Below are positions 25,873-56,956 of a stretch of 64,000 bases of DNA, piece by piece. A model generated the notes under the pieces. It was given only the letters and a program-made list of their open reading frames with translations, did not search any database and was not told where the DNA came from. The translations under genes were made by a program, and so were the position numbers. Position 1 is the first letter of the stretch. Every line of letters starts with the position of its first letter. Origin of the DNA: Salinirubrum litoreum (GTDB lineage Archaea; Halobacteriota; Halobacteria; Halobacteriales; Haloferacaceae); contig NZ_JAJCVJ010000002.1 of assembly GCF_020567425.1 (NCBI RefSeq), positions 372,001-436,000 on the forward strand, written 5' to 3'.

Positions 25873-25891
25873 CTTAGTGTGGGGATAATAA
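25873..25891 (+). promoter_or_regulatory. CTTA-N6-ATAATAA promoter element (for 25932-28597)
   Basis: CTTAG-TGTGGG-GATAATAA lies 40 bp before ATG 25932. It starts 13 bp after the stop of the previous gene. Confidence 0.78.
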
Positions 25892-28599: not shown

Positions 28600-28618
28600 C
28601 TTACGAGCCGTATAATAA
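28600..28618 (+). promoter_or_regulatory. CTTA-N6-ATAATAA promoter element
   Basis: CTTAC-GAGCCG-TATAATAA begins 3 bp after the previous stop. The next credible start is at 28889, so the leader would be about 245-270 nt. I see no convincing gene in 28619-28888. Confidence 0.72.
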
Positions 28619-28888: not shown

Positions 28889-29359
28889 ATGGACGAGCGA
28901 CAGGACGACGACACCCCCACGACGGACCGAGAACAGGCGACGAGCGAGACCACGGAGATCGACGGTGGCGGCCGACTGGCGCGGCTACTCGCGTCGGTCC
29001 GCGACCTGCTGACCGGCATCGCAGGACGTGACGGTCGTCGAGACGAGCAGACCGGCGAGCAGGAGCCACTCGGCCGGGTCGGTGACGGACCCCCGGCCGA
29101 GCAGACGGACCACTCGCTTCTCGCCGTCGACCCGGAACTCCTCGATCCGGAGCAACGGATCGTGCAGCTCCTGCTCTCGGAGGGAGGCCGCATCCCCCAG
29201 TCGGAGATCGTCGAGCGGACGCGGTGGACCAGTTCGACCGTCAGCCGACGACTCGGCAATATGGAGTCCCGTGGGCTCGTCGAGCGCCGACGCTTCACGG
29301 ACGGGAAGACGGTGTTTCTGGTAGACGAGAGCGTCGACCCCTCGCTCGAACGGGACTGA
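28889..29359 (+). CDS. Winged-helix (MarR/DUF7343-type) regulator
   Basis: This 156-residue protein begins at ATG 28889 after a GGAGG-like site. The first 85 residues are low complexity and acidic, with a short hydrophobic stretch, RLARLLASVRDLLTGI. The C-terminal winged helix (about 88-145) includes LLLSEGGRIPQSEIVERTRW and STVSRRLGNMESRGLVER. The same HTH occurs at the C-terminus of the membrane regulator at 33544. It has no membrane anchor here. It is probably a cytoplasmic transcription factor for this region; the target is not known. Confidence 0.75.
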   Translation: MDERQDDDTPTTDREQATSETTEIDGGGRLARLLASVRDLLTGIAGRDGRRDEQTGEQEPLGRVGDGPPAEQTDHSLLAVDPELLDPEQRIVQLLLSEGGRIPQSEIVERTRWTSSTVSRRLGNMESRGLVERRRFTDGKTVFLVDESVDPSLERD

Positions 29360-29403: not shown

Positions 29404-29934
29404 CTACCGACGACGCAGGACACGGACGGCCGTCGCCGCCAGCAAGCCGGCGACCGGGACGAGCGCGTGAACCGGACGGAGGGGCCCGACGCCGGTCGCC
29501 GCCACGCCGACCCCGAGAGCGGTCGCGGCGACGAGCGCGAGCCACCTGACGCTCGTCGGGAACCGGGCCCCGACCCCGTCGTCGGCGGCACCGACGACCC
29601 GCCGGTCGTCGCCGGGGACGGTGACCCGCCCCGTCTCCGGGTCGAACACCAGTTTCCCCTGTCGCTCGAGCGCCGGGAGGTCGACCTCGTAGAGCGTCTC
29701 GTGGACCTCCGTCTCGGTCGGTGTCATCCCGTCGTTAGACTCGTCGAGCCAGGCGACCATCGCGGCGGCCAGGTCCCCGACCGTGTGTTCACGACCGGTT
29801 CGTTCGGTCACGAGCGAGACGATCCGTGCCCGTCGGTCGGCCTCGCTGACGCCGCCGAAGCCCGGTCGGTCGTCGAGTGTGCGGCCGGACAGCGTCGTCC
29901 TCTCGCCCTCGTCCGGCCCTGGAACGGGCAGCAT
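29404..29934 (-). CDS. DUF7344-type wHTH protein with two C-terminal membrane helices
   Basis: This 176-residue protein has a helical domain at about 30-110 with RIVSLVTERTGREHTVGDLA and ETLYEVDLPALERQGKLVFD. That matches the DUF7344 winged-helix pattern common in haloarchaeal surface loci. Two short hydrophobic segments (about 128-148 and 152-172) probably anchor it. It may be a membrane-tethered DNA-binding protein. Unlike its neighbours it has no CTTA-N6-ATAATAA element in front of it. Confidence 0.7.
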   Translation of the reverse strand: MLPVPGPDEGERTTLSGRTLDDRPGFGGVSEADRRARIVSLVTERTGREHTVGDLAAAMVAWLDESNDGMTPTETEVHETLYEVDLPALERQGKLVFDPETGRVTVPGDDRRVVGAADDGVGARFPTSVRWLALVAATALGVGVAATGVGPLRPVHALVPVAGLLAATAVRVLRRR

Positions 29935-29980: not shown

Positions 29981-29999
29981 TTTACCCGACTCATAATAA
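29981..29999 (+). promoter_or_regulatory. CTTA-N6-ATAATAA promoter element (for 30120-32239)
   Basis: TTTAC-CCGACT-CATAATAA lies 120 bp before ATG 30120, giving a leader of about 90-95 nt. It contains a short frame (ATG 29999 to 30055) that begins inside the element and is unlikely to be translated. Confidence 0.72.
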
Positions 30000-32550: not shown

Positions 32551-32606
32551 TGCAACAGTCGGGAGCCGAGTTGCAATCGTTTCAGTCGGCGGGAGCCGGC
32601 TGCAAC
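32551..32606. promoter_or_regulatory. Palindromic candidate operator (TGCAAC-N13-GTTGCA) with half-site
   Basis: TGCAAC 32551-32556 and GTTGCA 32570-32575 form an inverted repeat with a 13-nt spacer. A third TGCAAC at 32601, with a repeated GGGAGCCG beside it, completes a cluster. It lies about 65-120 bp before ATG 32672, upstream of a likely TATA run (cgttta near 32635). The remainder of 32240-32671 has no gene. Confidence 0.5.
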
Positions 32607-32671
32607 AGTCAGAACCGTCCGGGACAGACTCAGACGTTTACTACCCTCCGAGCTATTCGATTGACCTGCAC

Positions 32672-33259
32672 ATGACCATCCAGGCAGACGAGCCGAGTGC
32701 GGTTCTGAACGAGGAGGAGACGGCGGCGACGCCGTCCACGCTCGACAAAGACAAGGTCCACCATCTGCTGAAAAACGAGCGACGACGACAGGCACTGCGG
32801 TATCTGCGGGACTGCGAGGGGCCGGTGCAGATGCGGGACGTCGCCGAACAGGTCGCCGCCTGGGAGCACGACACGACGGTACAGGCGCTCATGTCCGACC
32901 AGCGGCAGCGTGTCTACATCGCGCTCTATCAGGCGCACCTGCCCGCACTCGACGAGGCGGGCGTCATCGACTACAACCAGAGCCGGGGCATCGTGGAGAA
33001 GACGCCGCTCGCGAGTCGCCTGATGCACTACCTCGAGGACCCGACCGACGACGAGTCGAACGACGACGACCGCGAGTGGGAGCAGTACTACCTCGGCGCT
33101 GCGGGCGTCAGCACGGTCGCACTGGCCCTCACGACGTTCGAGGTCGCCGCCTTCACGGCCGCCGCAGCGTTGCCGGTCGCACTCGGCGTCGTGTTGCTGT
33201 ACGGTGGGATCTCGGTCGCACACGTTCTCTCCGACGACGGCGTCGCCGACGGCGACTGA
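32672..33259 (+). CDS. DUF7344-type wHTH protein with membrane helices
   Basis: This 195-residue protein has the DUF7344 winged-helix region (about 25-115) with LLKNERRRQALRYLRDCEGP, MRDVAEQVAAWE and IALYQAHLPALDEAGVIDYN. An acidic linker with repeated Asp is followed by two hydrophobic segments (about 145-185). It is paralogous to the protein at 29404-29934, though that one is shorter at the N-terminus. It may repress or activate the surface cluster; the palindrome upstream would suit autoregulation (inference). Confidence 0.75.
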   Translation: MTIQADEPSAVLNEEETAATPSTLDKDKVHHLLKNERRRQALRYLRDCEGPVQMRDVAEQVAAWEHDTTVQALMSDQRQRVYIALYQAHLPALDEAGVIDYNQSRGIVEKTPLASRLMHYLEDPTDDESNDDDREWEQYYLGAAGVSTVALALTTFEVAAFTAAAALPVALGVVLLYGGISVAHVLSDDGVADGD

Positions 33260-33445
33260 GACAGTATTTAACGGGAGCGCCGACGGGTCCCGAACGTGAC
33301 TGTATTCGTTTCACGAACGTCCAGAACGAGTACTGTCTGCTCGGCGATAACGGGCGCGTAGTGGTCTCACGTACGTGTCTGGCCACCGTTGCTGACGTAC
33401 CAGTGAAGCGAGATGATCTTCAGACAACAGTTTCGAACGGAAAGA

Positions 33446-33459: not shown

Positions 33460-33543
33460 TGCTCTGCATCAAGCCAGGACAACCGCCGACCTGACTCGCC
33501 GGCGGAGCGTGTCGATCCCCCCAGAATGCCTCACAGGCCCACC

Positions 33544-34737
33544 ATGAGCACCCGAGTACCGTCGCTAATCGTGGTTGCGTTCGTCGTTTCTCTCGCAGCC
33601 GCGGGTGGCGCGACCGCCGCGGCGGACGGGACGCTCGTGCGTGCGGAGTTCGCGGACACCGTCGGGGTGGTCGAGGGACCCGACCACCCCCACGTCTGGG
33701 AGTCCGAGTCGAACACGCTGAAGACGACCTTCGAGACCACCGAGGAGAGCGACTACTACGAGGTGTGCGTCCACCCGGAGGGGAGCGACGCCGACCCCAC
33801 GTGTACCAGCGAGCGCGTCGGACCGGTCAAGACCGTGTCCGTGAACGTCTCCTTCGAGAATCTCAGCGCCGTGAAAGAGCGGAACCTGACCGTCGAACTC
33901 CACCAGCGCGTCGAGGGGAAACTGGTGCTCGCCGACAGTACGCGGGTCGACCCCGTCGTCATCGCCAAGGACGGCGACCTCGACAACGACCAACTGACGA
34001 ACCGCGCCGAACTGGACAACGGGACCTCGATGTACCGCTCCGACACCGACCGCGACAGTCTCAGCGACGGGAGTGAGGTGAAGAACTACGAGACCTCGCC
34101 GCTCCGCTCGGACACCGACGACGACGGCCTCACCGACGCACAGGAACTGGAGATGGACACCGACCCGCTCAGCAGCGACACCGACGACGACGGCCTCGAC
34201 GATTCGCTGGAGACTCGGATCGGGACGGACCCGACGCGGGCGAACAACCGACAGATGCTCGTGGCCTCCGTGCTGGTCGTCGTCGGCGTCATCGCCGGGT
34301 CGGGGTTCGTCGTCCTCTCGAACATCCGGGGAGTGATCGGTCGCGCGCTCGCCGGTGTGGTGGCCGCGAGCGCTCGGTTACGATCGACGTCGAGCGCCGG
34401 AGACGACACCGAGGGGCCGACCGAAACAACGACGGCCGACGGACAGCCGCCCGACTCGGAGACGGCCTCTCCCGACCGGGAGACGGTCCCCGCCGACCGA
34501 CCGAAGCCGGTCATCAGCGACGAGGAGGTCATCATTCGCCTACTGCGGGACAACGACGGCTGGCTCTATCAGAGCGAGATCGTCGAGGCACGCGACTGGT
34601 CGAAGTCGAAGGTGAGCCGTATGCTGTCGTCCATGGAGGAGTCGGACCGGATCCAGAAGATAACCGTCGGCCGGCAGAACGTGATCGCCGAGTCGGGGTC
34701 GGTGCCCGAGGGGCTGGAGTCGCCGTTCGGAGACTGA
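33544..34737 (+). CDS. Membrane-spanning regulator with calcium-binding repeats outside and HTH inside
   Basis: This 397-residue protein (ATG 33544; ATG 33526 possible) has a signal peptide at about 1-25. An ectodomain follows with two N-glycosylation sequons (NVS, NLT). Four thrombospondin-type-3 calcium-like repeats lie at about 143-225 (DGDLDNDQ, DTDRDSLSDG, DTDDDGLTDA, DTDDDGLDDS). One transmembrane segment lies at 238-260 and an acidic linker precedes a C-terminal winged helix at 325-385. The HTH is homologous to that at 28889. It could sense a surface or divalent-cation signal and act directly on DNA; this is inference. Confidence 0.8.
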   Translation: MSTRVPSLIVVAFVVSLAAAGGATAAADGTLVRAEFADTVGVVEGPDHPHVWESESNTLKTTFETTEESDYYEVCVHPEGSDADPTCTSERVGPVKTVSVNVSFENLSAVKERNLTVELHQRVEGKLVLADSTRVDPVVIAKDGDLDNDQLTNRAELDNGTSMYRSDTDRDSLSDGSEVKNYETSPLRSDTDDDGLTDAQELEMDTDPLSSDTDDDGLDDSLETRIGTDPTRANNRQMLVASVLVVVGVIAGSGFVVLSNIRGVIGRALAGVVAASARLRSTSSAGDDTEGPTETTTADGQPPDSETASPDRETVPADRPKPVISDEEVIIRLLRDNDGWLYQSEIVEARDWSKSKVSRMLSSMEESDRIQKITVGRQNVIAESGSVPEGLESPFGD

Positions 34738-35751: not shown

Positions 35752-35770
35752 CTTACCGGTCGGATAATAA
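35752..35770 (+). promoter_or_regulatory. CTTA-N6-ATAATAA promoter element (for 35796-36764)
   Basis: CTTAC-CGGTCG-GATAATAA, ending 25 bp before ATG 35796, so the transcript is probably leaderless. Confidence 0.8.
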
Positions 35771-40200: not shown

Positions 40201-40219
40201 TTATTATCGGGAGGATAAG
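40201..40219 (-). promoter_or_regulatory. CTTA-N6-ATAATAA promoter element (for DUF4129 operon)
   Basis: Minus strand CTTAT-CCTCCC-GATAATAA, 75 bp before ATG 40125. It supports the downstream start for that gene. Confidence 0.77.
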
Positions 40220-45252: not shown

Positions 45253-45271
45253 TTATTATCGGTCGCGTAAG
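45253..45271 (-). promoter_or_regulatory. CTTA-N6-ATAATAA promoter element (for 44008-45225)
   Basis: Minus strand CTTAC-GCGACC-GATAATAA, ending 27 bp before ATG 45225. Confidence 0.8.
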
Positions 45272-48088: not shown

Positions 48089-48107
48089 TTATTATGCGGC
48101 ACGTAGC
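48089..48107 (-). promoter_or_regulatory. CTTA-N6-ATAATAA promoter element (for 47042-48055)
   Basis: Minus strand GCTAC-GTGCCG-CATAATAA, ending 33 bp before ATG 48055. Confidence 0.76.
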
Positions 48108-48153: not shown

Positions 48154-48172
48154 CTTACCTCCGTCATAATAA
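48154..48172 (+). promoter_or_regulatory. CTTA-N6-ATAATAA promoter element (for 48204-48872)
   Basis: CTTAC-CTCCGT-CATAATAA, ending 31 bp before GTG 48204 and divergent from the copy at 48089. Confidence 0.78.
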
Positions 48173-48203: not shown

Positions 48204-48872
48204 GTGAGTCCAGCCACCGAGGACGCCGTCCGACCCATCTACGTCGAACTGGAAGTGTCCCACCCCGACCTGCCGCTCGCCGACCTGATGGAGACGCTGC
48301 CGGCGACCACGCTCGAGTTCGAGTTCCAGCCCGCGACGGCGGCGCTGACCGGCGGCTTCCTCACCGTCGTGGGAACCGACTCGAAAACCGTGAGAGCGGC
48401 GCTGGACGACGATCCCACGGTTGGCGAGGTGTTGCTGCTCGGTCTCATCGACTCCCAACTCGTCTACCGCATCACCGTCGGCGACTGCGTTCCCCTCCTG
48501 CCGCCGGACGCGACCGACCGCGGGATCCGGGTGCTCCACGCCGGCACCGAGAACGGCGCGTGGCGACTCCGGTTGCACTGTCCCGACCGGAGCGTACTCG
48601 AGGCGCTCCGGCGACACTACCACGACAACGGGGTGTCGTTCCGCATCAAGCGTCTCCACGACGCCCGCACGACACGCGGCGCGCCGAGTGTCACGCTGTC
48701 CCCGGTCCACCGGGAGACGCTGACGATCGCCTACGAGGCGGGCTACTTCGACGTGCCCCGCAACGCCACGCAGAGTGAACTCGCCGAGCGACTCGGCCTC
48801 TCCCGGTCCGGGGTCTCACAGCGGCTCCGTCGAGCGACGGCGGCGCTGGTGGAACAGCTTTTGCTTCAGTGA
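48204..48872 (+). CDS. Bat-type HTH_10 transcriptional regulator
   Basis: This 222-residue protein starts at GTG 48204, about 31 bp after the promoter box, which fits a leaderless transcript. The N-terminal 150 residues form a GAF/BAT-like alpha/beta domain. The C-terminal HTH_10 domain reads TLSPVHRETLTIAYEAGYFD, RNATQSELAERLGLSRSGVS, which is diagnostic of the bacterio-opsin-activator family. Since it is itself under the motif, it is a candidate to bind it. Such an autoregulated activator is a hypothesis. Confidence 0.87.
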   Translation: MSPATEDAVRPIYVELEVSHPDLPLADLMETLPATTLEFEFQPATAALTGGFLTVVGTDSKTVRAALDDDPTVGEVLLLGLIDSQLVYRITVGDCVPLLPPDATDRGIRVLHAGTENGAWRLRLHCPDRSVLEALRRHYHDNGVSFRIKRLHDARTTRGAPSVTLSPVHRETLTIAYEAGYFDVPRNATQSELAERLGLSRSGVSQRLRRATAALVEQLLLQ

Positions 48873-52388: not shown

Positions 52389-52407
52389 GTTACCGGGCCG
52401 ATAATAA
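52389..52407 (+). promoter_or_regulatory. CTTA-N6-ATAATAA promoter element (for 52465-56880)
   Basis: GTTAC-CGGGCC-GATAATAA, ending 57 bp before ATG 52465. It would drive the five-gene dehydrogenase operon. Confidence 0.78.
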
Positions 52408-52464: not shown

Positions 52465-52587
52465 ATGCGAACCAGAACATCACTCACGATACTGCTCGCC
52501 GCGACGCTCGTACTGATCGCCGTCGTCCGGTCTTCGACGGACGAACCGGACGCACCGACCGAGAGAGCCGACGGACGGACACGATGA
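52465..52587 (+). CDS. 40-residue membrane/secreted small protein
   Basis: ATG 52465 follows a good GAGGAGG ribosome site and ends TGA 52587, overlapping the next ATG by 4 bp (ATGA). The product is MRTRTSLTILLAATLVLIAV followed by VRSSTDEPDAPTERADGRTR, a single hydrophobic segment with an acidic-polar tail. It is too short for most gene finders, but the ribosome site and overlap support it. Function is unknown; it could be a small membrane peptide or simply a coupling leader for the acyltransferase gene. Confidence 0.6.
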   Translation: MRTRTSLTILLAATLVLIAVVRSSTDEPDAPTERADGRTR

Positions 52588-56937: not shown

Positions 56938-56956
56938 CTTAGCGCCCGTATAATAA
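56938..56956 (+). promoter_or_regulatory. CTTA-N6-ATAATAA promoter element (for 56984-60047)
   Basis: CTTAG-CGCCCG-TATAATAA, ending 27 bp before ATG 56984. Confidence 0.8.

Follow-up and report, generated by a model that had tools for sequence, protein, structure and literature searches.

In the 64,000-nucleotide stretch of Salinirubrum litoreum DNA analysed here (the window), a gene for a predicted transmembrane regulator, hereafter the sensor, lies among polysaccharide genes directly behind a second winged-helix gene. The sensor, its promoter and the neighbouring regulators are arranged as follows.

33544..34737, + strand, transmembrane regulator gene (397 aa; ATG start; second in-frame ATG at 33526)
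33544-33621, + strand, signal peptide of the transmembrane regulator
33622-33963, + strand, Ig-like ectodomain
33964-34242, + strand, TSP3-type repeats
34255-34329, + strand, TM helix, followed by a disordered linker
34513-34692, + strand, C-terminal DUF7343 winged helix
33448..33457, + strand, TATA box TATAAAATAA of the sensor gene, read directly
33424..33444, + strand, imperfect AACNGT-like repeat ACAACAGTTTCGAACGGAAAG just 5' of this TATA box; fails the strict tandem pattern, candidate only
32672..33259, + strand, DUF7344b, the partner winged-helix protein with a C-terminal membrane hairpin, conserved immediately 5' of the sensor
32602..32620, + strand, GCAACAGTCAGAACCGTCC, an imperfect copy of the GNAACNGT tandem box 5' of DUF7344b
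32552-32560, further single copy of the GNAACNGT box 5' of DUF7344b
28889..29359, + strand, soluble DUF7343 protein, present in several other clusters too
29404..29934, - strand, DUF7344a, a divergent DUF7344 protein of a separate clade
48204..48872, + strand, Bat/HTH_10-type regulator with its own CTTA-N8-ATAATAA promoter

A sensor-like protein on a single chain

Pfam searches, AlphaFold modelling on a 20-sequence alignment and hydrophobicity confirmed the original prediction that a signal peptide, repeats, one TM helix and a C-terminal HTH are combined in one protein, and this membrane-regulator architecture is conserved across the 20 aligned sequences. Hydrophobic stretches occur at the N terminus and at about residues 236-265. 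In the model, strands at 29-140 form an Ig-like sandwich, four short helices lie within the repeats (pLDDT 94-98), a long helix at 235-278 passes through the membrane, residues 269-321 are disordered and a winged helix follows with high confidence at 326-383. The winged helix matches DUF7343 (PF24034, residues 324-382, E=4e-23) with 81.4 bits against a curated cut-off of 27.6, which makes the sensor a member of that family. Its predicted homology to the soluble regulator at 28889 was borne out (44% over 43 aa), both being DUF7343 proteins.

Four DxDxDG-type repeats had been predicted. They begin at residues 145, 167, 190 and 212 and exceed chance (five DxDxD observed, with shuffled sequences giving 0.6 on expectation, P=0.001), but only two are canonical and the other two are degenerate. 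TSP3_bac (PF18884) matches two stretches of the sensor at 23.1 bits, just below its cut-off of 25, and scores 42.2 bits, clearly above it, in the orthologue L064. The predicted glycosylation sequons are present in the ectodomain, although their number (four against 1.9 expected, P=0.10) is not significantly above chance.

Among the 20 aligned sensor sequences, which come from several families, Cys87 of the Ig-like domain is invariant and Cys75 nearly so, the recognition-helix residues W352, S353, V357, S358 and R359 are invariant, and there are invariant Asp positions inside the repeats. Repeat number differs widely among the homologues; set against the conserved Ig-like cysteine pair, this fits a stalk, and the repeats look more like a stalk than a calcium sensor. 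In a fold search the ectodomain resembled many Ig-like sandwiches about equally (Z about 9-10.6), including NPC2, RhoGDI, complement and GH2 domains and the Wzt carbohydrate-binding domain, so that its function is not read from its fold. A profile search against solved structures matched only a biofilm-associated surface protein and an OmpA-family protein, on the repeat part. A scan of genome contigs returned mostly bacterial TSP3 proteins, plus the loci of Haloferax elongans and Haladaptatus litoreus. The protein is best explained, as far as its sequence and predicted fold tell, as a type-I transmembrane one-component transcription regulator. A longer TSP3-DUF7343 paralogue of 624 aa (G000:C3:37230-39851) is encoded on a different contig of this genome; its gene is followed by a DUF7344 gene and has no copy of the CTTA motif described below.

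A promoter motif confined to the polysaccharide locus

The motif had been proposed with a spacer of six nucleotides; that form gave no match within two mismatches, and the right spacing is eight. Across the 4.06 Mb genome there are ten exact CTTA-N8-ATAATAA sites, all of them inside C2:397873-442193, 44 kb of polysaccharide genes, and the reversed control pattern does not occur at all genome-wide. All twelve TTA forms fall inside the same 44-kb region. The sites in the window are:

25873..25891, + strand, CTTA-N8-ATAATAA, SBP_bac_5 gene
28600..28618, + strand, CTTA-N8-ATAATAA, 270 nt before the soluble DUF7343 gene
29982..29999, + strand, TTA-N8-ATAATAA, DegT aminotransferase gene
35752..35770, + strand, CTTA-N8-ATAATAA, MoxR ATPase gene
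40201..40219, - strand, CTTA-N8-ATAATAA
40226..40243, + strand, CTA-N8-ATAATAA, divergent partner of the preceding site
45253..45271, - strand, CTTA-N8-ATAATAA, glycosyltransferase
48089..48106, - strand, CTA-N8-ATAATAA, glycosyltransferase family 2
48154..48172, + strand, CTTA-N8-ATAATAA, HTH_10 gene
52390..52407, + strand, TTA-N8-ATAATAA, gene at 52584
56938..56956, + strand, CTTA-N8-ATAATAA
61150..61168, - strand, CTTA-N8-ATAATAA

Similar motif clusters were recognised in 18 of the 99 genomes searched (the present one included), and a syntenic one lies on a Haloferax mediterranei plasmid. The clusters hold polysaccharide genes, namely those for glycosyltransferases, DegT, nucleotide-sugar dehydrogenases and a flippase. 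Outside named records, genes were called with our own script. Of the 111 YTA forms gathered over the clusters, 101 have a gene called no more than 300 nt away; 38 of these 101 lie 22-34 nt before a start codon (P 5e-26 against a uniform distribution), the place of the TATA box in leaderless transcripts. No dedicated TFB was found near the motif clusters in the seven genomes searched.

Among motif sites with an assigned downstream gene in the 18 clusters, none points to the sensor or to DUF7344b. Some do lead to the HTH_10 gene and, over a distance of 270 nt, to the gene of the soluble DUF7343 protein. The sensor promoter has the TATA box TATAAAATAA and, by motif scan, no CTTA-N8-ATAATAA element, as expected from the earlier proposals of an ordinary TATA promoter and of a position upstream of the regulon rather than in it. 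The 28600 motif has no HTH_10 gene behind it; the corresponding Haloferax gibbonsii site precedes one, and this part of the window may have lost a regulator gene.

All 18 motif clusters contain DUF7344b and 15 contain DUF7343, with 21 of 90 DUF7343 matches inside motif clusters against 1.05 expected (P 2e-20). In the DUF7344b structure a two-stranded winged helix is followed, at the C terminus, by a pair of long helices that match its hydrophobic region. The cluster DUF7344b proteins form one clade (support 100/99), which also holds nine copies from other loci; the DUF7344a clade is long-branched and, in this sample, confined to such clusters. The sensor gene comes straight after DUF7344b, on the same strand, in nine pairs from the genomes sampled. 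This order recurs in Haloferax elongans (six motif sites) and Haladaptatus litoreus (four), and on plasmids of Haloferax mediterranei (eight), gibbonsii (eight) and larsenii (seven), Haladaptatus salinisoli (five) and Halomicrococcus (five). In Haloferax mediterranei the sensor gene is E6P09_RS17105 and the DUF7344b gene E6P09_RS17100.

Seven sensor loci without DUF7344b (G063, G090, G064, G047, G026, G006:C11 and G057:3950k) have the same recognition helix and no motif within 20 kb. Whole-genome motif counts in those sensor genomes without DUF7344b that were searched were none or scattered, and loci of the Haloarculaceae type, where the gene order is reversed, have 0-1 motif sites. Conversely, G018, G041 and G006:C14 carry DUF7344b and the motif with no DUF7343 in the locus. 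Among sensor loci the association of motif with DUF7344b gave P 9e-6 with Haladaptatus caseinilyticus counted as an exception, a value that, like the other P-values here, is only a guide, because loci and genomes are phylogenetically related and the counts are not independent events. In this comparison of loci, the motif is seen to follow DUF7344b rather than the sensor. The status of Haladaptatus caseinilyticus as an exception did not hold, since a DUF7344b gene lies about 23 kb off on the same plasmid.

At three loci (G072:C1:331214, G086:C7:146490 and G096:C21:60244) the place of the full sensor behind DUF7344b is taken by a short protein with DUF7343, called at 97-162 aa. Outside the main cluster, a lone motif site at G079:C1:2387727 has a DUF7344 paralogue of the same clade some 0.8 kb away, at 2388499.

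The tandem box and the lipoprotein partners

A second element, consisting of GNAACNGT repeats about 10 bp apart, precedes the TATA box 5' of DUF7344b genes. The same tandem precedes a small lipoprotein that adjoins sensor homologues outside polysaccharide loci. The strict tandem pattern, defined after looking at the DUF7344b (25) and lipoprotein (8) sets, matched 11 of the 25 and 4 of the 8 upstream regions, respectively, and 5 of 10 further DUF7344b regions that are independent of the definition; it matched 0 of 20 sensor and 3 of 911 other upstream regions. Also independent of the definition, the box precedes the partner lipoproteins of seven loci found later (G102, G139, G176, G242, G138, G124 and G109). 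A strict match is present in under half of the DUF7344b and lipoprotein partner promoters, and the window has an imperfect copy only.

On the simplest reading, the sensor subfamily would read the GNAACNGT box and control its neighbour gene. We also considered autoregulation by DUF7344 as the source of the box. Other DUF7344 paralogue loci (1 of 18, eight of the same clade) have it at background rate, as do other DUF7343 sensor loci (3 of 20), though four short soluble DUF7344 genes elsewhere do carry it, so that autoregulation may still be the reason. Over whole genomes the pattern matches at about four more places in each, more often than the control (18 genomes); 20 were examined, and besides the four short DUF7344 genes, two precede a PadR gene. 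Because the box occurs at such genes, a third factor may bind it. Further examples of the tandem box lie at G063:C33:71322-71348 and G035:C1:2814388-2814414.

The lipoproteins (78-146 aa as called; for example L064:10832-11272, L105:12765-13169 and L108:11366-11701) are mostly acidic and of low complexity, with no Pfam match. In eight of them, 66 of the 67 Asn residues of the mature part lie in N-X-S/T sequons, each count being above all 2000 shuffles; a ninth adjoins the sensor in G096. Those of G109, G124 and G138 have only three sequons, so dense glycosylation is not universal. These partners hint at a surface glycan or glycoprotein, rather than cations, as the signal, and such a molecule is most likely what the sensor would read. 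The original suggestion of S-layer or glycan status thus gains indirect support on its glycan side, from partners of homologues outside polysaccharide loci.

A proposed cascade, its rivals and known systems

We propose that the Ig-like domain, held on the repeat stalk, would read the state of the cell surface, and that the TM helix and disordered linker would join this ectodomain to the winged helix inside. The sensor would head a short local cascade, acting on the adjacent partner promoter through the tandem GNAACNGT boxes; at polysaccharide loci the partner DUF7344b, a second membrane-tied winged helix, would then act on the CTTA-N8-ATAATAA core promoters. The proposal builds on the conserved architecture, the gene pairing, the locus-confined motif and the box on partner promoters; from these we infer DNA binding by both proteins, the site that each would bind, the sign of regulation and the signal. 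We give the whole chain, from sensor to partner promoter to DUF7344b to polysaccharide promoters, a little less than an even chance. A more specific version is speculative and rather improbable: a surface-glycan checkpoint in which the ectodomain would read the glycosylation of a sentinel lipoprotein, or exported polysaccharide, and signal via the GNAACNGT boxes, DUF7344b relaying the message to the locus-private core-promoter type CTTA-N8-ATAATAA.

Paired membrane-bound regulators act together in some bacteria, and the sensor and DUF7344b could likewise meet in the membrane and act jointly at CTTA-N8-ATAATAA, with something else binding GNAACNGT. The conservation of two membrane-tied winged-helix genes as neighbours, the TM segments predicted in both and the presence of the box before unrelated regulators agree with this, but the motif persists in clusters that have only DUF7344b and so does not need the sensor, and the box goes with the genes partnered with the sensor, one kind of which encodes a lipoprotein and not a regulator. 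We regard joint action as possible, if on the unlikely side. Direct binding of CTTA-N8-ATAATAA by the sensor, as the original prediction implied, is improbable. The sensor does sit in the locus that confines the motif, where DUF7343 proteins are strongly enriched; against this, the seven loci with same-helix homologues and no DUF7344b have no motif cluster, and the motif is present in three clusters that lack DUF7343.

Two further readings depart more strongly from the proposed cascade. The TSP3-type repeats might themselves sense calcium or magnesium, to which their invariant Asp positions would be suited; yet such repeats are usually structural, their number varies widely among homologues, and haloarchaea live in high concentrations of divalent cations. 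The earlier idea of divalent-cation reporting is therefore unsupported and, in our estimate, very improbable. Least probable of all is a role at the surface as an anchor or structural protein, with a winged helix that has lost DNA binding: DNA binding by the sensor is a prediction and TM anchoring may limit access to DNA, but the recognition-helix residues are invariant in 20 sequences from several families and the winged helix is modelled with high confidence.

Little is known about how archaea tell their genome of the state of the cell surface. With a sensor, a partner regulator, two defined cis-elements and a polysaccharide output, the locus forms a complete, testable circuit that makes the control of archaeal slime production directly testable, and a sequon-packed lipoprotein would, if this is true, be a new type of signal carrier. 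A pyrF-based deletion system exists for Haloferax mediterranei, in which an EPS cluster, which may or may not be the present one, was deleted to raise bioplastic yield (PMC8387396).

The topology of the sensor is shared, its genomic context unusual. At all 20 other DUF7343 loci sampled in the same genomes, the protein has one hydrophobic segment at its N terminus, another ahead of the domain, and DUF7343 at its C terminus; membrane winged-helix proteins of type I are thus a general haloarchaeal family. None of the 20 matches the sensor ectodomain profile or has more than one DxDxDG, and the five proteins scanned all carry DUF7345, which has no match in the window sensor at E<=0.1, its ectodomain being a different Ig-like domain with TSP3 repeats. 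Haloarchaeal DUF7345-DUF7343 proteins (PF24036 and PF24034) thus have the sensor's topology in all members sampled, with one TM, but differ in their DUF7345 ectodomain, in lacking TSP3 repeats, in a VSM or VSQ helix (M or Q after VS in the ten printed, R in 20 of 20 of the sensor subfamily) and, unlike the sensor subfamily, in having no partner box above background. Judged by these comparisons, the sensor is set apart from the general family by a private ectodomain. Among the papers searched, none names DUF7343, DUF7344 or DUF7345.

ToxR-like and CadC-like bacterial regulators are also single-pass proteins with an ectodomain, but their winged helix is N-terminal, OmpR-type and of another family, whereas that of the sensor is C-terminal and DUF7343, with homology compared by Pfam alone. 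ArnR and ArnR1 of Sulfolobus acidocaldarius are membrane-bound HTH regulators of cell-surface structures, ArnR having an N-terminal HTH, a putative HAMP and two C-terminal TM segments (PMC6396743). The sensor differs from them in its C-terminal HTH, its single TM near the middle and the lack of a HAMP match, and the ArnR topology is nearer to DUF7344b than to the sensor. Transmembrane transcription regulators (TTRs), which unite a DNA-binding domain and a TM segment in one protein, are reported for archaea too, at about four per genome, in a text that mentions neither Halobacteria nor Euryarchaeota (Demey et al. 2023, PMC10269533). The sensor likewise has a predicted DNA-binding domain and a TM segment on one chain, and differs in that the domain is C-terminal, that it is borne with a TSP3 stalk and that it is paired with a second membrane winged helix. 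The nearest described systems are ArnR/ArnR1 and the proteins of the TTR survey.
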